Shown here one piece after another: positions 9,935 to 61,840 of a stretch of DNA of 64,000 nucleotides. Under the pieces are notes generated by a model. That model was not told where the DNA came from and ran no database searches. It saw nothing but the letters and a program-made list of their open reading frames with translations. How positions within the stretch are numbered: the first letter of the stretch is position 1; every line of letters starts with the position of its first letter. The stretch lies in contig CACXKA010000007.1 of NCBI GenBank assembly GCA_902768125.1, positions 62,001 through 126,000 on the forward strand, in the 5' to 3' direction. Both the position numbers and the translations under genes were made by a program. This DNA comes from an uncultured Bacteroidales bacterium. GTDB lineage: Bacteria > Bacteroidota > Bacteroidia > Bacteroidales > Bacteroidaceae.

Positions 9935-11644
9935 ATGAGAAGATTGACGGTTTTGATAGGAGTGTTGTGGATGGGGTCATTGTTGGCAATGGCTCAACCT
10001 AAGTTTGCCTCGAAGGTGAGGAAGGGTATTGTGTCGGTGAACACGTACGACAAGCAGGGAAATCTGTTGCATCAGGGAACGGGATTCTATGTGGGATCCA
10101 ATGGAGAGGCGGTGGCAGATTACCGTGTATTCAAGGGGGCTTACAAGGCGGTTGTGATTGATGATGGTGGAAAGTCGGCGGATGTGGACATGATTCTGGG
10201 AGCCGACGACACCTATTCGCTGGTGCGCTTTCATGTCAACACCAAGGGGAATGCGGTCATTCCTTCCGTTACAGCTTCTCAGCCGATGAAATCGACGATT
10301 TATGTGTTGGGACGCAAGAACGGAGGCGTGTTGGGAGATGCGCAGGCTGTGATTGCCGACACGGCGATGATACAGGGAAAGTATGTTTATTATGGTCTGG
10401 ACAAGCAGGTGGAAGATGCGTTGATTGGTGCTCCCGTGTTCAACGAGGCGGGAAACCTGATGGGCGTGCTGCATCCGCAGATGGGCGGCAAGAACTATGT
10501 GATAGACATCCGTTTCCGTAATGAGCTGAAGATGTCGGCATTCCTCAACGGTTCGGCAGCGGTGGCGCTGAACAATATTTTCATCCCCAAGGCATTGCCC
10601 GAAACGCAGGAGGAAGCGTTGGTCTATCTCTATACGAAGTCGCGTTCCACCAGCAACGAGGAATATCTGGACATGCTCAACCGTTTCATCGCGACCTATC
10701 CCAAGAATGCGGAGGGATATTTCCGTCGCGCCACGCCGTTGATTGACATGACTCGCTTCGATGAGGCAGACCATGATATGCAACAATATCTTTCGTTGGC
10801 AGGCGACAAGGCTATCGCCAACTACAATGTGGCGACCCTCGTTTTCGACAAACTTCGTCTGCAACCTGAACCTGCTTATGAGAAGTGGAACATCGACGTC
10901 GCCCTCAAGTATGTGGACACGGCGTTGTCGCTCAATGCGTCTCAGACTCCTGGCGATGAGCAAAAGACGGAGAAGGCGCGGTATCTCATCCTGAAGGGAA
11001 TGATGCTGATGAACGAGAGACGGTATGACGATGCCCTGGCGGTGTATGAGGAACTGAACAGGGAGAGCGGTGGCGGCAGTCCCACGTATCTCTATGCCAT
11101 CAGCATGGCTCGTGAGGGTAGGGGCGACAGCATCGAGGCGGTGATGGAACCCATCGACAGCGCGATTGCCAAGTTCGGCACTCCATTGCCTTCGGAGGCA
11201 GCCAACTTCATCATGCGTCGCGGACAGCTCTATGCCAACAGCGGCAAGTATCGCGAGGCGGTGCAGGACTACAACCAGTATGCCCGTCTGATGAACGACA
11301 AGGTCAGTCCCGTCTTCTATTATGAGCGTTCCCAGATTGAGGTGAATGCCCGCATGTATCAGCCGGCACTCGACGACATCAACAAGGCGATTGAACTGGC
11401 ACCTCGTGAACCGCTCTATTATGTGGAGAAGGCGGCGCTGACTGTTCGGGTGAATCTGTTCGACGAGTGCATCGAGGCGTGCCAGACTGCTATCCGACTC
11501 AATCCTGACATCATCGACACCTATCGCATCCTGGGTTATGCCCAGTTCCAGAAGGGCGACAAGACCGCTGCCCGTGCCAATTTGCAGAAGGCAATTGATA
11601 TGGGAGACGAAACGGCAAAGAAATTGCTTTCCACCCTCTTTTGA
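9935..11644 (+). CDS. Secreted pseudoprotease-TPR protein
   Basis: A 569-residue protein with a signal peptide (about 1-20, LLAMAQ). Residues about 25-200 look like a trypsin/HtrA-type double beta-barrel (GTGFYV, DALIGAPVFNEAGNLMGVLH), but the expected His position reads ADYRVF instead of NYHVF and the Ser position reads LIGAPVF instead of NSGGPVF, so it is probably inactive. Residues about 225-569 are TPR repeats (for example ALVYLYTKSRSTSNEEY, DIINKAIELAP-type helices). A likely role is a periplasmic scaffold. It follows recN by 67 nt. The protease-fold call is by motif resemblance. Confidence 0.75.
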   Translation: MRRLTVLIGVLWMGSLLAMAQPKFASKVRKGIVSVNTYDKQGNLLHQGTGFYVGSNGEAVADYRVFKGAYKAVVIDDGGKSADVDMILGADDTYSLVRFHVNTKGNAVIPSVTASQPMKSTIYVLGRKNGGVLGDAQAVIADTAMIQGKYVYYGLDKQVEDALIGAPVFNEAGNLMGVLHPQMGGKNYVIDIRFRNELKMSAFLNGSAAVALNNIFIPKALPETQEEALVYLYTKSRSTSNEEYLDMLNRFIATYPKNAEGYFRRATPLIDMTRFDEADHDMQQYLSLAGDKAIANYNVATLVFDKLRLQPEPAYEKWNIDVALKYVDTALSLNASQTPGDEQKTEKARYLILKGMMLMNERRYDDALAVYEELNRESGGGSPTYLYAISMAREGRGDSIEAVMEPIDSAIAKFGTPLPSEAANFIMRRGQLYANSGKYREAVQDYNQYARLMNDKVSPVFYYERSQIEVNARMYQPALDDINKAIELAPREPLYYVEKAALTVRVNLFDECIEACQTAIRLNPDIIDTYRILGYAQFQKGDKTAARANLQKAIDMGDETAKKLLSTLF

Positions 11645-11706: not shown

Positions 11707-11780
11707 ATGTAAAATATTTGTAAATTCCTCTTGGCGACATTTTCCACCCCCTTGGAAAAATGTAAAATATTTGTAAATTC
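11707..11780 (+). promoter_or_regulatory. Regulatory module upstream of the first DUF4419 gene
   Basis: Two identical 21-bp direct repeats at 11707-11727 and 11760-11780 begin ATGTAAAATATTTGTAAATT. Between them lies TTTTCCACCCCC at 11740-11751, 8 nt before the second repeat. The second repeat ends 6 nt before the putative -33 TTGG (11787-11790). The same elements in the same order occur upstream of the second DUF4419 gene (59265-59326, minus strand). Probably a transcription-factor binding array. Confidence 0.7.
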
Positions 11781-11786
11781 ATTTTC

Positions 11787-11818
11787 TTGGAGTTTACTTG
11801 CAAGTTTTCCTACCTTTG
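11787..11818 (+). promoter_or_regulatory. Promoter of the first DUF4419 gene
   Basis: -33 TTGG at 11787-11790 and -7 TACCTTTG at 11811-11818 are separated by 20 nt. The transcript start would be about 30 nt before the ATG at 11853. Confidence 0.7.
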
Positions 11819-11852
11819 CAGCAAATAAGTTTCTCACTAAAATGTTTGCGTT

Positions 11853-13505
11853 ATGAAAACTTTGCGTATCACTCTTTGGGCTGTCCTCAGCCTCATGTTT
11901 TCTGCCCTCGGTCACGGGCAGGTTCCTCCTATTGATACAGACGAGCCGCAGGCCAGAGCCTACACGCTTCCGTTGCCGCTCGATTCTCCTTCGCCGCTGG
12001 AGCTGGGGAAGTTGTATCCGGACATCGTCCTTGATTCGATGGTGATGGATGCATTCAAGCAGTCGCAGATCGTGGACAAGAAGATGGCTAAGCGGTTGCG
12101 GAAGGCGCAGAAGAAGGCATCGAAGAGCAAGATTCTCAAGCGGTCGAAGGGGAGCATCACGTTTGTGGTGGACGAGGGGTTGCCGGCTCCCAAGAAGACC
12201 TTTGCAGTGAAGGATGGCAAGGCGATCGCAGACGAAATTGTGGGCAAGACCGTGCCGTCCGCGGAGCTTTATCGTGTGGTGAAGAGCAGTTTCGACGATG
12301 AGTCGCTGTGCTACATGGGCGAGGACAATTTATTTAAATGTATGGTGAATGCGTATGCCGACCACCATCCGCTGGTGCTGTCGCCCGATGTGGTGTGGCT
12401 CATCATCGCCCAGAACTTCTCGAACTATGTGAATAAGCATTCGGAGGAGATGCGCGACTTGTTTGTGGAGCATGAGGGGAAGATGAAGATTGTGGTGACT
12501 GAGGGCAACGATGTTCTGGGCAAGTCGGGCACGAAGGGCGATTGGGAGAAGTTGCTGAGTGATTTCACCGCCGGTGTTGCGGCGAACACCAAGGGGGATG
12601 TGGCGGAGATGTTGACTGCCGACTTCACGACCACGGGGGTGACGGAGCGCATCGCTTCGCAAATCACGCTGATGGATGCGGTGGAGACTTTCTTCGAATT
12701 CTGGAATATGAGGGTGGCTTGTGGCATCCCTTCCATCACCCTCACGGGCACGCCGGACGACTGGCGGAAGGTGCAGGCGAAGGCGCGCAGTCTGGAGAAG
12801 TACGGTCTGGAGAAGTGGTCGCGGCAGCTGGACAAGGTGCTGGCGGAGTTCGTGAAGGCGTCGGAGGGGCAGCCCGACCGCGTGTTCTGGCGGAGCATCG
12901 TGAAGAAACTGCGTGTTGACGAGCTGAAGAACACCAGGGGTTGTTTCCGCTCTGACGTCACCATGCTGGACGGCTGGTTCCTCACGTTCTTCCCTGACAA
13001 GTGGTTTGGTGTCCCGCCGGAGGAGGTGGCGTGGACTTCCAGCATGGCAAACGAGATGGTGAGCGTGTCGTTCAACCAAGTTTACACCCATCCCGTCACG
13101 AACGAAGAGGTGGAGGTCGTGCCGATGGAGCTGTGGGCTGGATTCGTGGGCGTGGAGGTGGACAGCGTGACGCAAGCGTTCACTCCCAAGATTGGCTGGC
13201 TTGCCCGCGTGTCGGACCCCGAGGCAGAGGAGGTTGCGCGGCTGGAAGAGGAAACCAAGTTCCAGCTTCTCTACTATTCTATGTCCAAGGATCAACCCAC
13301 CCCACCGGAAATTCTCAGCAAGATGTCGCACATTCGCAGTCTGGATCTCGATTACGGAGACGAGGTTCCTGTCAATGTCCCCGAATGGATGGACAGTCTT
13401 TCCATCGAAAGGCTCGAGATTTACGGTTCTCTCACCGACGAGGAGGAGGCTCGGTTGCGCCAGCGGTTCCCCAATGCTGACATCAAGAATAGGAAGAAAG
13501 AGTAA
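11853..13505 (+). CDS. Secreted DUF4419 protein
   Basis: A 550-residue protein with a signal peptide (about 1-23). A short Pro-rich segment and a basic stretch (RKAQKKASKSK) precede a DUF4419 domain (about 95-440), recognised by HHPLVLSPDVVWLIIAQNF and CGIPSITLTGTPDDW. The C-terminal tail (about 470-540) looks leucine-rich-repeat-like (PEILSKMSHIRSLDLDYG). The function of DUF4419 is unknown to me. It is paralogous to the DUF4419 part of the gene at 57207-59192: both have SITFVVDE near the N-terminus, the same domain and the same tail. GC-rich codon use. It stands alone, with its own complex promoter region. Confidence 0.85.
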   Translation: MKTLRITLWAVLSLMFSALGHGQVPPIDTDEPQARAYTLPLPLDSPSPLELGKLYPDIVLDSMVMDAFKQSQIVDKKMAKRLRKAQKKASKSKILKRSKGSITFVVDEGLPAPKKTFAVKDGKAIADEIVGKTVPSAELYRVVKSSFDDESLCYMGEDNLFKCMVNAYADHHPLVLSPDVVWLIIAQNFSNYVNKHSEEMRDLFVEHEGKMKIVVTEGNDVLGKSGTKGDWEKLLSDFTAGVAANTKGDVAEMLTADFTTTGVTERIASQITLMDAVETFFEFWNMRVACGIPSITLTGTPDDWRKVQAKARSLEKYGLEKWSRQLDKVLAEFVKASEGQPDRVFWRSIVKKLRVDELKNTRGCFRSDVTMLDGWFLTFFPDKWFGVPPEEVAWTSSMANEMVSVSFNQVYTHPVTNEEVEVVPMELWAGFVGVEVDSVTQAFTPKIGWLARVSDPEAEEVARLEEETKFQLLYYSMSKDQPTPPEILSKMSHIRSLDLDYGDEVPVNVPEWMDSLSIERLEIYGSLTDEEEARLRQRFPNADIKNRKKE

Positions 13506-57206: not shown

Positions 57207-59192
57207 TTACGGTTCTGGGAAATTCCATTCAGTTGAGTTGACCGTCCTCCTGAGTTCGTTTTGCACATCAACGGTCCTCAGCGTTGTCGATGGTTGCATG
57301 ATGATGTTATACTTTTTTTTGTGGATGTCGAGTTCCACAGTCTTTGTCCCTATGTACGTAACACGAATCTTGTCTTTGGGATTCACTACTTTGAGTTTGA
57401 AATGACCAAGGGAGTCGGTGACAGCATGTCCAACGATGCTGTCCTGTTCATTGATTTCAACCACGTTGACCATCCAAAGCGGACCGGCAGCGTCGCTCAC
57501 AGTACCGCTGATCATCTTGATTTTCTTTTTGCTCTCTTTCTTTTTCAGTTTACTCTTGGTCTTGATTTCGATGACGCCCCATCTGCCTCTTTCACCCCAG
57601 ATGGCTGTGGCAGCAGCATCCTTGAAGACGTAGATGCTCTTGATGTCATCAGGTTCCACGCCTATGAGTTCTGCATAGTCCTCATCGCGGTTGAAGGGCT
57701 TCCCATTCACGACGATCAATGGAACACCCAGCGCACCAGAATTGACTTTTACATCGTAATTATAATACGTATTATTGATGATAAGCTTAGGGAACCTTTT
57801 GATGAGTTTTTTTTCTTCAGATGGGTTGATTTTCCCTTTGACCTTGAATTCATCGATTTTTATCTTGTCCATCCATTCGGGCAGGACGATTTCATCGGTG
57901 AAGGTGAGGCTCAATTTCTTGATGTGCTTCAACTGAGCAAGGTGCTCAGGCACTCTGTTTACCCGTAGATCGAGACCATCGAAGGAATCTTCTTCGGCCT
58001 TTTTCCTGAGACTTTCCACGATCTTCTCGTCGCCCTCTGTCTGTCGCACCATCCACCCCATCTTGGGTGTGAGGGCATGGGTCTCGCTATTCACTTCCGT
58101 TCCGATATAACCAGCAACGAGTTCCATCGGGGTATCGACGAGGACATCGCCATTATCAGGGTCGATAATCTGGTATCTGAAATCCACATACACGCGCTCC
58201 GACGGCATCTCGTGGGTGTGGAGCACTTGATCGAGTGTTTTCCCGTTTTCATCGGGGAAAAGCTTGAGCATCCAGCCGTCCAAAATTGTCGGGGTGCGAA
58301 GGTCACAGACTTTATCGCCCACCAGTTTGTCGGGATCTTCCTTCTTGACCATACCCTGCCAGAAAGCCTGATTGGGGGTGCCTTGGGAGGCGTTGACAAA
58401 CTCGGTCAGGATAGGTTTGAGGCTCTTGATCCACTTGCTCATGCCGTACTTCTCCAACTGCTTTGTCTTCTCCAGCACCTTCTGCCAGTCTTCTGGCGTG
58501 CCCTTGAGTGTGATGGATGGAATGCCACAGCCTACATAATGGATAATGTAGTCGAAGTAGGTCTTCACCGTCTCCATCAGCGTCACTTGCGAGGTGATGC
58601 GCTCCGTCACGCCTGTGGTGGTAAAGTCGGCAGTCATAGTTTTGGCGATGTCACCCTTGGTGTATTCGTCAATTTGTGCAGCGAAACTAGCAATGAGTTT
58701 CTCCCAGTCAGGGTCTTCATGAATCAGATCCTTCTTGGTTTCCACCACCAGATCCATCTTCTCTGTGTGGTTCACAATCTGGTCGCGCAGTTCTTCCGAA
58801 TGCGCATTCACGTAACGTGCGAATCCCTGACTGATGAGCAACCAAACCATATCGGGCGAGAGCACGAGAGGACGATGCTCAGCGTATGCCCGCACAATCG
58901 TCTGGAAGAACACGTCTTTCCCCCTGAAAGTGTAAAAACTTTCGTTGTTGGAAAAACTCTTGGCAATCCAACGAGGTTCCAAAACACCCTCGTCTTCGAA
59001 GATTTCAGAAAGAGCCCCAGAACCCCTTGATTGGAGAAATCCCATGTCAAGGTCGTCCTCGTCGATGGGGCTGAGGTTCTCGTCAACGACAAAGGTGATG
59101 CTCCCTTCCGTGCTGCTCACGATTTTGTTTGTCTGTGCCCAACCCGCGATGGTGGTCAGCACGATGCAAACAAGTGTAACGATTCTTTTCAT
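57207..59192 (-). CDS. Secreted DUF4419 protein fused to TonB-plug-like and carboxypeptidase-regulatory-like domains
   Basis: A 661-residue protein with a signal peptide (about 1-20, AGWAQ). DUF4419 domain (about 80-400: HRPLVLSPDMVWLLISQGF, CGIPSITLKGTPEDW), LRR-like tail (about 415-475), then a TonB-plug-like domain (about 485-550: PLIVVNGKPFN, IKSIYVFKDAAATAIWGERG, GVIEIKTK) and a carboxypeptidase-D-regulatory-like domain (about 560-630: ISGTVSDAAGPL..VNVVEI, DSLGHFKLKV). In SusC-type receptors the order is regulatory domain then plug; here it is reversed and no barrel follows. Start at 59192. Regulatory module upstream at 59265-59326. Confidence 0.85.
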   Translation of the reverse strand: MKRIVTLVCIVLTTIAGWAQTNKIVSSTEGSITFVVDENLSPIDEDDLDMGFLQSRGSGALSEIFEDEGVLEPRWIAKSFSNNESFYTFRGKDVFFQTIVRAYAEHRPLVLSPDMVWLLISQGFARYVNAHSEELRDQIVNHTEKMDLVVETKKDLIHEDPDWEKLIASFAAQIDEYTKGDIAKTMTADFTTTGVTERITSQVTLMETVKTYFDYIIHYVGCGIPSITLKGTPEDWQKVLEKTKQLEKYGMSKWIKSLKPILTEFVNASQGTPNQAFWQGMVKKEDPDKLVGDKVCDLRTPTILDGWMLKLFPDENGKTLDQVLHTHEMPSERVYVDFRYQIIDPDNGDVLVDTPMELVAGYIGTEVNSETHALTPKMGWMVRQTEGDEKIVESLRKKAEEDSFDGLDLRVNRVPEHLAQLKHIKKLSLTFTDEIVLPEWMDKIKIDEFKVKGKINPSEEKKLIKRFPKLIINNTYYNYDVKVNSGALGVPLIVVNGKPFNRDEDYAELIGVEPDDIKSIYVFKDAAATAIWGERGRWGVIEIKTKSKLKKKESKKKIKMISGTVSDAAGPLWMVNVVEINEQDSIVGHAVTDSLGHFKLKVVNPKDKIRVTYIGTKTVELDIHKKKYNIIMQPSTTLRTVDVQNELRRTVNSTEWNFPEP

Positions 59193-59225: not shown

Positions 59226-59326
59226 TGCAAAGGTCGAAATTCTTGCGAAAAACACCAAGAAATTGAATTTACAAAAAATTTACATTTTGTTTCGGGGGTG
59301 GAAAATAATTTACAAAAATTTTACAT
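59226..59326 (-). promoter_or_regulatory. Promoter and regulatory module of the second DUF4419 gene
   Basis: On the minus strand: distal repeat 59326-59306 (ATGTAAAATTTTTGTAAATT), box TTTTCCACCCCC 59305-59294, proximal repeat 59285-59265, then TTTCTTGG as -33 and GACCTTTG as -7 (near 59233-59226). The same parts in the same order occur at 11707-11818, including the 8-nt spacing from the box to the proximal repeat. Confidence 0.7.
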
Positions 59327-59329
59327 CAT

Positions 59330-59364
59330 CTTTGTAAATGGTTGATATGTGATAATTTACAAAG
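59330..59364. repeat. Inverted repeat at the 3' end of the TPR-HTH regulator gene
   Basis: CTTTGTAAAT (59330-59339) and ATTTACAAAG (59355-59364) are a perfect 10-bp pair with a 15-nt loop. It overlaps the stop codon and repeats the TTTGTAAAT core of the adjacent regulatory module. Confidence 0.65.
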
Positions 59365-60541
59365 AAAGTACAAAATTGTCCCAATCTTTTGCCGTTCCCT
59401 TGCCGTCAAACACTTTTTGTTGCATTCGGAGGCGGTTTTGAGTCACAGCACTATTGCTGAATGCCATCAATTTGGCAATATTGGAAGGTGAAACTTCCAT
59501 CTTGATGAGCATGCAAATACGATATTCGGTGTCGGAAAGAGGGTAGAGGGCAAAGAGTTGCTCCTTGAATGTGGGATGTGCCTTCAGGAGTTTCTCCTCA
59601 ATCTTTTTCCAGTCGGCATCCTTCAACACCTTATTATTATATATATGTGTAGTCACCAGTTGGTTGATCTCTTTGTCGTAGAACTGGCGTTTGTTTCGAG
59701 ACGAAAGGAATATCTCGGCAGCCTCCTCTTTCCGTATCTCTCTCTGTTGGCGCAGATGGAGCACCAGCCAGATGGTTGCCACGATGATGAGCAGGGCTGA
59801 GATGCTCACAATCCAGATGAATTGCCGCTCTTTTGAGTTCTCCTCCTCCAGGCGGGTGTTCATGTTGTTGAGCACTTGGCTTCTGGCTTGTGCATGCAGT
59901 TTCTGTATGCGCACCACCAGTTCCGCTTTGGGCTGCTTGGCAAGGGTGCTGTCACTCTTCATCTCCTTGATCGCTTGCATGTCTTCGCTGCTGTATCGCA
60001 TTCCCAACGTGTCACCGATCTCCTTGCAATAGAAATGGGCAAGTTGCTGCATGTCAAGTGCTTCGTCCAGCAGTCCGTTGCGCATATAGATGTGACCGAT
60101 TTGTGAATAGCAACGGCTTTTCAGACAAGAGGTGATGTTGACGCTGTCGCACAGCAGGGCTTTCTGGAAATAGAGCAGGGCTTTCTCTCCGTTTTGCAGG
60201 CTAGAGTTGACACATCCTACATAATAGTATGCTTCGGGAAGATGCCCGTTAGGGTCTTGTTTCTCAAATTGTTCTACCGCCATACAGATGAGCGAGTCAG
60301 ACTTGTGCTCCACTTTGGCGATCTCATCGGCCTTCACTCGGAGCATGTTGTAGTAAGCCTTGGTGTCCTCGTTCGCATCTTTCATCTCCCCATCCATACG
60401 CAGCAGCATGCGTCTGGCACTGTCGGCATCGGTGGCTGTGAGGCTGTCGATGTCAACAAGAATACGCTCATGCTGACCCATTCTGTTGCAACAGGTGGTC
60501 AGCATGAGCATAATGGTTAGTAAAAATGCGAGTTTTCTCAT
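59357..60541 (-). CDS. Membrane TPR protein with C-terminal LuxR-type HTH
   Basis: A 394-residue protein. An N-terminal signal with a possible lipobox (LTTCC) is followed by TPR-like repeats (about 75-210: AYYYVGCVNSSLQNGEKALLYFQKAL), a TM helix (about 243-265, WIVSISALLIIVATIWLVL), a coiled-coil linker and a C-terminal HTH (about 335-390: LSDTEYRICMLIKMEVSPSNIAKLM). Such proteins are transmembrane one-piece regulators common in Bacteroidetes. It lies just upstream of, and in the same direction as, the DUF4419 fusion gene, so it is a candidate for its regulator. It follows purA by 27 nt. Confidence 0.82.
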   Translation of the reverse strand: MRKLAFLLTIMLMLTTCCNRMGQHERILVDIDSLTATDADSARRMLLRMDGEMKDANEDTKAYYNMLRVKADEIAKVEHKSDSLICMAVEQFEKQDPNGHLPEAYYYVGCVNSSLQNGEKALLYFQKALLCDSVNITSCLKSRCYSQIGHIYMRNGLLDEALDMQQLAHFYCKEIGDTLGMRYSSEDMQAIKEMKSDSTLAKQPKAELVVRIQKLHAQARSQVLNNMNTRLEEENSKERQFIWIVSISALLIIVATIWLVLHLRQQREIRKEEAAEIFLSSRNKRQFYDKEINQLVTTHIYNNKVLKDADWKKIEEKLLKAHPTFKEQLFALYPLSDTEYRICMLIKMEVSPSNIAKLMAFSNSAVTQNRLRMQQKVFDGKGTAKDWDNFVLSL

Positions 60542-60568: not shown

Positions 60569-61840
60569 TTATCGTTCAATCGTCTGTTCGCGGTCAGGGC
60601 CTACGCTGACGATGGTGATAGGCGTTTCCAGTTCTTTCTCCAAGAATGCGATGTATTCAGAGAATGCCTTGGGGAATTCCTTTTCGCTTGTCATCTTGGT
60701 GAGGTCGGTCTTCCAACCTGGCATCTCAGCATAAACTGGCTCGATGAGACCGTCGCTGATGTCGTAAGGGAAGTCACGAGTCACGCTGCCGTCCTTCAGT
60801 TTGTAGGCAGTGCAAGCCTTGATGGTGTCGAAGCCGTCGAGCACGTCGCTCTTCATCATGATGAGCTTCGTCACGCCGCTGACCATGATAGCATAGCGGA
60901 GTGCCACGAGGTCAATCCAGCCACAACGACGTTCGCGACCAGTCACAGCACCATACTCATGACCGATGTCACGCATCTGCTTGCCTGTCTCGTCGAATAA
61001 CTCTGTTGGGAAAGGACCAGCACCTACGCGTGTGCAATAAGCCTTGATGATGCCGAATACATCGCCAATCTTGTTAGGACCAATGCCCAAACCGATGCAG
61101 GCGCCTGCACAGATGGTGTTGGAAGAGGTGACGAAAGGATAAGAACCGAAGTCGATGTCGAGCATAGTGCCCTGCGCACCTTCGCAAAGCACAGACTTGC
61201 CCTGCTTCAGGAGTTTGTTGATTTCGTGCTCAGAATCCACCAACTGGAACTGCTTGATGTACTCGATGCCTTCCATCCACTTCTTCTCCACCTCAGTGAT
61301 GTCGTAGTCAGTATAGTTGAGGCTCTTGAGGATACCCTCATGACGTGCCTTGTGGGCAGCGTACTTCTCTTCGAAGTTATCGAGGATGTCACCTACACGC
61401 AGACCGTTACGGCTGGTCTTGTCGGTGTAGGTAGGACCAATGCCCTTGCCAGTTGTGCCCACCTTATTCTTGCCCTTGGCTGCCTCATAAGCAGCGTCGA
61501 GCAGACGGTGAGTTGGCATGATGAGGTGTGCTTTCTTGGAGATGTGGAGGCGGTTCTTCAGGTTGTGACCGCTCTTTTCCAAATCTTTTGCTTCATCCAT
61601 GAAGAGGTCTGGTGCCAGCACCACACCATTACCAATAATGTTTACTTTATCACCTTGGAAAATGCCCGATGGAATGGAACGAAGCACGTACTTCTGTCCC
61701 TCGAACTCGAGCGTGTGTCCTGCGTTAGGACCTCCTTGGAAACGGGCTACAACATCATAGCGTGGAGTCAACACATCCACGACCTTACCTTTACCTTCGT
61801 CTCCCCATTGAAGACCTAACAATACATCTACTTTGCTCAT
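60569..61840 (-). CDS. purA: Adenylosuccinate synthetase
   Basis: A 423-residue GTP-dependent enzyme that joins IMP and aspartate in AMP synthesis. LLGLQWGDEGKGKVVDVL (catalytic Asp and His region), GGPNAGHT, GTTGKGIGPTYTDK, and LCEGAQGTMLDIDFGSYPFVTSSNT are all intact. Length normal. It lies 27 nt after the Fur-family gene, probably in one operon. Confidence 0.97.
   Translation of the reverse strand: MSKVDVLLGLQWGDEGKGKVVDVLTPRYDVVARFQGGPNAGHTLEFEGQKYVLRSIPSGIFQGDKVNIIGNGVVLAPDLFMDEAKDLEKSGHNLKNRLHISKKAHLIMPTHRLLDAAYEAAKGKNKVGTTGKGIGPTYTDKTSRNGLRVGDILDNFEEKYAAHKARHEGILKSLNYTDYDITEVEKKWMEGIEYIKQFQLVDSEHEINKLLKQGKSVLCEGAQGTMLDIDFGSYPFVTSSNTICAGACIGLGIGPNKIGDVFGIIKAYCTRVGAGPFPTELFDETGKQMRDIGHEYGAVTGRERRCGWIDLVALRYAIMVSGVTKLIMMKSDVLDGFDTIKACTAYKLKDGSVTRDFPYDISDGLIEPVYAEMPGWKTDLTKMTSEKEFPKAFSEYIAFLEKELETPITIVSVGPDREQTIER

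Follow-up and report, generated by a model that had tools for sequence, protein, structure and literature searches.

The window analysed here, a 64-kb stretch corresponding to positions 62001-126000 of contig C7 in a 2.78-Mb genome of 41 contigs, contains two genes for exported DUF4419 proteins, each preceded by a module made of two direct repeats, a C-rich box and a promoter core (Table 1). The start of target gene 2 was chosen by inspection at an ATG, the list of open reading frames placing it at an upstream TTG (59258). In the C-terminal CarboxypepD_reg-like part of its product, the Pfam matches fall below the curated cut-off and a TonB plug is recognised by eye; the 550-aa product of target gene 1 has no CarboxypepD_reg match. 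The AlphaFold model of DUF4419 was too poor for use (pLDDT 45.7). A gene for a TPR protein with a weak trypsin-like match (9935-11644, + strand) ends just before module 1.

Table 1. Features of the two modules, their neighbouring genes and related sites. Positions are those of the window unless a contig (C) or locus (L) is given.
Feature	Position	Strand	Comment
Distal repeat, module 1	11707-11726	+	ATGTAAAATATTTGTAAATT, TGTAAA-N5-TGTAAA, 11-bp direct repeat
C-rich box TTTTCCACCCCC, module 1	11740-11751	+	Lineage-specific accessory element
Proximal repeat, module 1	11760-11779	+	53 bp from distal repeat
-33 region TTTCTTGG, module 1	11783-11790	+	TTGG 27 bp after proximal repeat start
-7 box TACCTTTGCA, module 1	11811-11820	+	Bacteroidota TAnnTTTG
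Target gene 1, 550-aa exported DUF4419 protein	11853-13505	+	Pfam PF14388, E 1.3e-63; export from N-terminus by inspection
Distal repeat, module 2	59307-59326	-	30 nt past stop codon of regulator gene
C-rich box, module 2	59294-59305	-	
Proximal repeat, module 2	59266-59285	-	41 bp from distal repeat
-33 region TTTCTTGG, module 2	59255-59262	-	
-7 box CGACCTTTGCA, module 2	59226-59236	-	
Target gene 2, exported DUF4419 protein with C-terminal CarboxypepD_reg-like part	57207-59192	-	Pfam PF14388, E 2.4e-69
Proposed regulator, TPR-TM-HTH	59357-60541	-	Signal or lipobox by eye, TPR domain, one TM helix, C-terminal HTH
purA	60569-61840	-	Directly upstream of regulator gene; named from sequence; conserved neighbour
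Five paired sites in the genome	C4:78508, C4:136364, C7:73707, C7:121266, C10:23253		Both C7 sites are in the window
Sensor/target homology in the paralogue branch	L146:4484-5509 and L146:3788-4282	-	Parallel loci L157, L153, L162, L151

The two modules had been located in an earlier, sequence-only reading, and re-reading of the sequence bore out their coordinates on both strands. Each was said to hold two near-identical repeats of 21 bp; the repeats are present, and at module 1 they are identical 20-mers, but their length is 20 bp. Each repeat in the window reads ATGTAAAWTWTTTGTAAATT, in which TGTAAA occurs twice at a distance of 11 bp, the general form being an 11-bp direct repeat TGTRAA-N5-TGTRAA. 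The pattern TGT[AG]AA-N5-TGT[AG]AA occurs four times in the 64-kb window, and all four occurrences are the module repeats. The placement of the C-rich box exactly 8 nt before the proximal repeat is true of both modules, and the promoter cores are alike, as had been claimed: TTTCTTGG is found in both, followed by the -7 box TACCTTTGCA in module 1 and CGACCTTTGCA in module 2, the Bacteroidota -7 consensus being given as TAnnTTTG (PMC12632263). The idea that the same module stands before both DUF4419 genes holds for the parts that they share, but not for the distance between the repeats, which is 53 bp at 11707 and 41 bp at 59326; thus, only the part made of box, proximal repeat and promoter is rigid.

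A search of the whole genome with the 20-mer pattern, allowing up to 3 mismatches, gave 14 matches, versus 3 for a reversed-pattern control, and 10 of the 14, with 0 or 1 mismatch, form exactly five pairs. The repeats of these five modules are 42, 42, 53, 41 and 42 bp apart, and each module precedes TTGG at -33 and a TAnnTTTG-like -7 box. Four of the genes downstream encode DUF4419 proteins and the fifth, on contig C10, a 934-aa outer-membrane beta-barrel protein; all five products have a signal-peptide-like N-terminus (by inspection). The genome scan suggested in the sequence-only reading thus finds the five paired sites at -33/-7 promoters of exported-protein genes, and not scattered. The proposal of a DUF4419 regulon stands as far as the four DUF4419 genes are concerned, but is too narrow, as the beta-barrel gene here and other exported-protein genes elsewhere also carry the module. 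A lone repeat with 2 mismatches lies near a contig end, with no module around it (locus L022, G000:C13:130-149).

Among 45 genomes of the genus, 29 possess DUF4419, and the strict pattern including the C-rich box was found in 4, at 13 places. Upstream of many DUF4419 genes of the genus, the same layout is seen with TGTGAA replacing TGTAAA, mostly without the C-rich box, and modules also precede YD-like and other exported-protein genes. At some DUF4419 genes, such as that of G026, no such layout was found in the upstream DNA read. We aligned 35 of 39 modules (four near-copies were omitted, and one overlapping pair in L063 was skipped). The motif CACCCC is present in 13 of these 35 and absent from 22, so that the C-rich box was rejected as an essential part; it is a lineage-specific, optional element, possibly the site of a second factor. 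The promoter is placed with precision: among the 40 modules listed, near-copies included, TTGG lies at exactly 27 bp from where the proximal repeat starts in 30, and the -7 box at 50-51 bp from that point in 35. The DNA between the repeats is poorly conserved, the repeats and their spacing being kept. Taking all repeat pairs 20-80 bp apart in the loci compared (n = 45), the spacing is 41-43 bp in 36, 53-54 bp in 4, 31 bp in 3 and 47 bp in 2, and 41-43, 53-54 and 31 bp are close to 4, 5 and 3 helical turns, respectively (10.5 bp per turn). We prefer this count to that of the 22 spacings adjacent to regulator genes (31 bp in 4, 40-42 bp in 16, 53-54 bp in 2) because two of the loci in the latter, L053 and L100, hold three overlapping repeats.

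The gene next to module 2 encodes a protein of 394 aa, in which the TPR repeats are preceded by a signal or lipobox and followed by one TM stretch and, at the C-terminus, an HTH (signal, TM and HTH by inspection). Its AlphaFold model (mean pLDDT 76.6, the HTH part only about 60-73) consists of TPR helices (residues 23-201), a long helix that includes the TM stretch (206-285) and a C-terminal helical HTH. A Foldseek search with the whole model returned mostly TPR proteins among the 50 matches listed (best E 8.1e-3). In a Pfam scan of the protein no DNA-binding domain scores, and comparison of the HTH with solved structures gave one sequence match at chance level (E 0.5). From the sequence and the model, we infer a periplasmic sensor, a single TM helix and a cytoplasmic C-terminal HTH, whose role in DNA binding is predicted from its fold, from distant homology and from its co-change with the half-site. 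In 13 named loci with relatives of this protein, from assemblies labelled Bacteroidaceae, Prevotellaceae or Bacteroidales, several of them from ruminant rumen, omasum or colon, DUF4419 lies downstream of the regulator gene in 11 and a purA match upstream in 12, the remaining locus beginning inside the regulator gene.

An orthologue of the regulator (E below 1e-90) is found in 31 of the 45 genomes of the genus. It is present together with DUF4419 in 27 genomes and alone in 4, DUF4419 is alone in 2, and 12 have neither (Fisher test, p = 4.5e-6, not corrected for kinship). The corresponding figures for the regulator and modules scoring at least 45 bits are 26, 5, 2 and 12 (Fisher test, p = 1.4e-5, not corrected for kinship), a test that is partly circular since the modules on which its model, R1, was built had been found at DUF4419 genes in these very genomes. 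Five genomes have the regulator but no strong module, and in four of them (G001, G010, G012 and G037) a weaker one, of 34-39 bits, adjoins the regulator gene. No regulator orthologue was found in G002 (97% complete), which has a module of 52.6 bits, nor in G038 (73% complete), which has a strong module; G026 possesses DUF4419, and neither a regulator orthologue nor, in the 350 bp read, a module was found. In eight genomes the gene next after the regulator encodes an exported protein other than DUF4419 and the repeats lie between the two, as full pairs in five (G017, G006, G011, G015 and G001), as a 31-bp pair in G021 and as a single repeat in G041 and G044. In this comparison, the module follows the predicted TPR-TM-HTH gene, and not DUF4419. 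One orthologue (L112, G003:C59) has an in-frame TAG and no repeats downstream, and is either degraded or affected by an assembly fault.

A profile search revealed weaker modules just downstream of regulator paralogues. In a test that uses no motif, an exact 6-mer repeated at a given lag was then sought in about 200 bp downstream of each gene. At lag 11, such a repeat is present downstream of 27 of 29 orthologous regulator genes (1.9 expected; the orthologues missed are L112 and L053) and of 15 of 15 genes in a first paralogue set (0.9 expected). A fuller census of the paralogues in the genus gave 33 of 36 distinct genes. For this census, 42 genes were found and 39 fetched (19 + 20), the first 19 regions having been chosen partly for a nearby module hit, and L147, L158 and L160 were not counted because their last 60 residues are the same as those of another paralogue; the result splits into 16 of 16 where nearness to a module hit had partly guided the choice of region and 17 of 20 where it had played no part. 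Outside the genus, the 19 loci of other genera among 30 listed, a set not chosen by motif, gave 13 (1.2 expected). In a wider order-level set of 29, which includes a paralogue from the genome studied here, lag 11 was found in 8 (1.3 expected), lags 10 and 33 being also raised (6 each, 1.6 and 1.7 expected). A second order-level set of 20, the wider group of BT3442 type, which shares at least one gene (G121) with the set of 29, has adjacent 11-bp repeats in only 7 loci (1.6 expected). Lag 11 ranks first in each set tested, and lags 31, 41-42 and 52-53 are also raised in the test of orthologues and paralogues, as expected of two boxes. For the other genes on the fetched loci, lag 11 was found in 47 of 347, a background that is inflated because many loci were chosen around modules, and lags 10 and 12 in 25 and 23.

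The words that make up the repeats segregate with the type of regulator. Of 29 orthologues, 26 have a TGTRAA pair beside them and none a pair of TGCAAA, TTTGCA or TGCCAA; of 36 paralogues, none has the former and 29 have the latter. In the three remaining orthologues, a strict TGTRAA pair was not found in the next 220 bp, and for L109 (G009) and L112 (G003) no pair was found even with a looser pattern. Within the orthologues, the fourth base of the half-site, where it is A or G, varies with the putative recognition helix: it is A in 14 of 14 half-sites beside the four genes with the SAVTQN helix, in 7 of 8 beside the two genes with the QIRLRLQH helix, and in 16 of 79 beside the remaining 23 genes. 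The tree places the two unusual helices apart from each other, so that at least two clades combine a changed helix with TGTAAA; a single origin of SAVTQN (one change) is seen in 24% of the bootstrap trees. With both bases occurring at sites of the common helix, the code is not a strict one, and a strict code of a single residue (Ser to Thr) was rejected, the second helix type also going with TGTAAA. In other families, words of TGTCCTA type 11 bp apart lie downstream of TPR-HTH genes (L259, L266, L269 and L270), which suggests that the rule may reach beyond this genus and family. The anatomy of the module, its spacing, its linkage to the regulator gene, the segregation of its words and their co-change with the regulator can all be read directly in the sequences compared. 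The candidacy of the TPR-HTH protein as a dedicated regulator, raised in the sequence-only reading, is thus strongly supported by comparative evidence (linkage, lag test and word segregation).

For the paralogue branch, profile comparison shows that the sensor's periplasmic domain and the exported product of the adjacent gene are homologous (hhalign probability 98.5, E 3e-15). The homology is also seen by hmmsearch in small sets, where 14 of 14 sensors score at E 0.043 or better and 10 of 10 targets at 2.5e-10 or better; other paralogues adjoin genes of AhpC/TSA-DUF4369 proteins. One might speculate, tentatively and at somewhat less than even confidence, that all these genes belong to a large unnamed family of Bacteroidota membrane regulators, each encoded beside its own target and using twin 11-bp boxes with a word set by the helix (TGTRAA, TGCAAA, TGCCAA, TGAAAA and perhaps TGTCCTA), and that in the paralogue branch each regulator, its sensor domain being homologous to the product, may sense the same ligand as the product or be titrated by it.

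We consider it very probable, from the comparisons above, that the module serves the TPR-TM-HTH protein as its operator and that this protein is a SusR-like one-component membrane activator. We infer binding, activation, topology and signal as follows. The periplasmic TPR domain would receive a signal, which the single TM helix and the helix that follows would relay to cytoplasmic HTH domains; these would bind the four TGTRAA half-sites, two per box and 11 bp apart, the boxes being near 3, 4 or 5 helical turns apart and thus presented on the same face of the DNA. From its position, the proximal box would bring about activation of the -33/-7 promoter, and the targets so controlled in this genome would be exported proteins, namely the four DUF4419 proteins and the outer-membrane beta-barrel protein.

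It is unlikely that the same regulator acts as a repressor or as a dual switch. Activation is not proved by position alone; the proximal box, for its part, stops about 7 bp short of the -33 element and does not cover the core promoter, which favours activation, and SusR, the nearest characterised kind, is reported as an activator (PMC3878776). A different factor, such as a response regulator of the PhoB/OmpR type, might bind the repeats, the TPR-HTH gene being merely a conserved neighbour, and we judge this quite improbable. Direct half-sites with an 11-bp period resemble the pho box and suit winged-helix response regulators, and G002 and G038 have modules and no regulator orthologue that we could find. 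Against such a factor, paralogues with the same HTH adjoin, elsewhere, their own 11-bp repeats with a different word, without a single crossing (0 of 36 and 0 of 29), helix and half-site differ together in two clades, and the arrangement recurs in other genera (13 of 19).

The sequence-only reading had also offered duplication of whole genes with conserved control, in which the DUF4419 genes would have been copied together with their upstream DNA and the module would be inherited and not a shared signal. Four DUF4419 genes do carry the module, and the upstream DNA is very similar between the two of them that lie on contig C4. Duplication does not suffice as an explanation, since the repeats remain at the regulator gene when the gene downstream is unrelated, as in the eight genomes with other exported-protein genes; together with the fifth module, before the unrelated beta-barrel gene, and with the divergence of the DNA between repeats whose sequence and spacing are kept, this largely refutes it, and we regard it as very unlikely. 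Chance similarity of AT-rich promoter DNA has in its favour that the repeats are AT-rich, and its probability is negligible: the ten near-exact matches fall in five pairs, as against 3 control matches with up to 3 mismatches, and lag 11 is the highest in every set, which refutes it.

The preferred reading, an operator bound by a membrane-anchored one-component activator, has its closest parallel in the SusR-like regulators (SusR BT3705 and SusR2 BT3091), which are described as membrane proteins with a periplasmic sensor and a cytoplasmic C-terminal HTH, and whose predicted operators are given as two direct-repeat boxes that are 67 or 77 bp apart and lie on one face of the DNA (Ravcheev et al. 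2013, PMC3878776). The regulator here shares with them the periplasmic sensor, single TM helix and C-terminal HTH, as predicted from sequence and AlphaFold, and an operator of two direct-repeat boxes separated by a long spacer of a near-integral number of turns. It differs in that the boxes are 31, 41-43 or 53-54 bp apart in 43 of the 45 pairs, not 67 or 77, in that each box is itself an 11-bp tandem, and in its targets, those seen being exported proteins of unknown role instead of starch or dextran genes; no glycan-use gene was recognised among them (DUF4419, the beta-barrel OMP_b-brl_3 and other exported proteins, some scanned with Pfam). Of 6 regions surrounding GH97 genes in genomes of the family, 4 contained SusR-type genes; the four proteins are taken for SusR because they are encoded next to GH97 and to genes that look susC-like by eye. 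Profile comparison aligns the HTH of these putative SusR proteins with that of the regulator family (hhalign probability 93.7, E 2e-7; hmmsearch in the set of four sequences, E 5e-7 to 6.9e-5). DUF6377 is present in the two of these four proteins that were scanned (E 2e-89 and 1.1e-85) and gave no match in the window regulator at E 0.001. By analogy, the regulator would work like SusR, and we do not file it as a SusR.

Other known systems are more distant. The regulator is membrane-anchored like the hybrid two-component systems (HTCS), but their kinase, receiver and AraC domains were not found in it (Pfam, E 0.001). The TTRs, described as one-component regulators that combine a TM region with a DNA-binding domain and are abundant in Bacteroidota (PMC10269533), resemble it in being one protein with a TM helix (from sequence and model) and a putative DNA-binding domain; the TTR survey, as described there, used Pfam DNA-binding models, and since the HTH here scores none, it would probably miss this regulator. 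BT_3442 is described as a TPR protein at one end of a MACPF gene cluster of uncharacterised proteins (PMC2954219). Its family (NCBIfam NF053779) matches the window regulator in two stretches, best at the C-terminal HTH (E 2.6e-10), but at 39.7 bits versus a cut-off of 940. We rejected the BT3442-family proteins as sharing the rule, the repeats being found in a minority of the wider group and being unconvincing at the two loci over the cut-off, L276 having no repeat and L248 an A-rich match only. As for the LuxR/GerE type, the same HTH profile led to six distant proteins, of which five have a GerE match (E 3.5e-8 to 4e-3, one over the curated cut-off), and PF00196 (GerE) gave no match in the window regulator at E 0.001. 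The usual LuxR site is a palindrome, unlike the two-box direct-repeat operator.

To our knowledge, few membrane one-component regulators of Bacteroidota have known DNA sites, and word searches among open-licence papers found no title or abstract start describing the module or the regulator. What we find is the same arrangement recurring in related bacteria, with different DNA words for different putative sensors. If the rule holds, the operator of such a regulator would be readable from the DNA beside its gene, candidate regulons and targets would become available for a class missed by standard domain models, and the orthologues and paralogues would offer naturally occurring variants for working out the helix-to-DNA code of this HTH. 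The DUF4419 proteins, of unknown function in Pfam, would thereby gain a candidate regulator and candidate regulatory partners.
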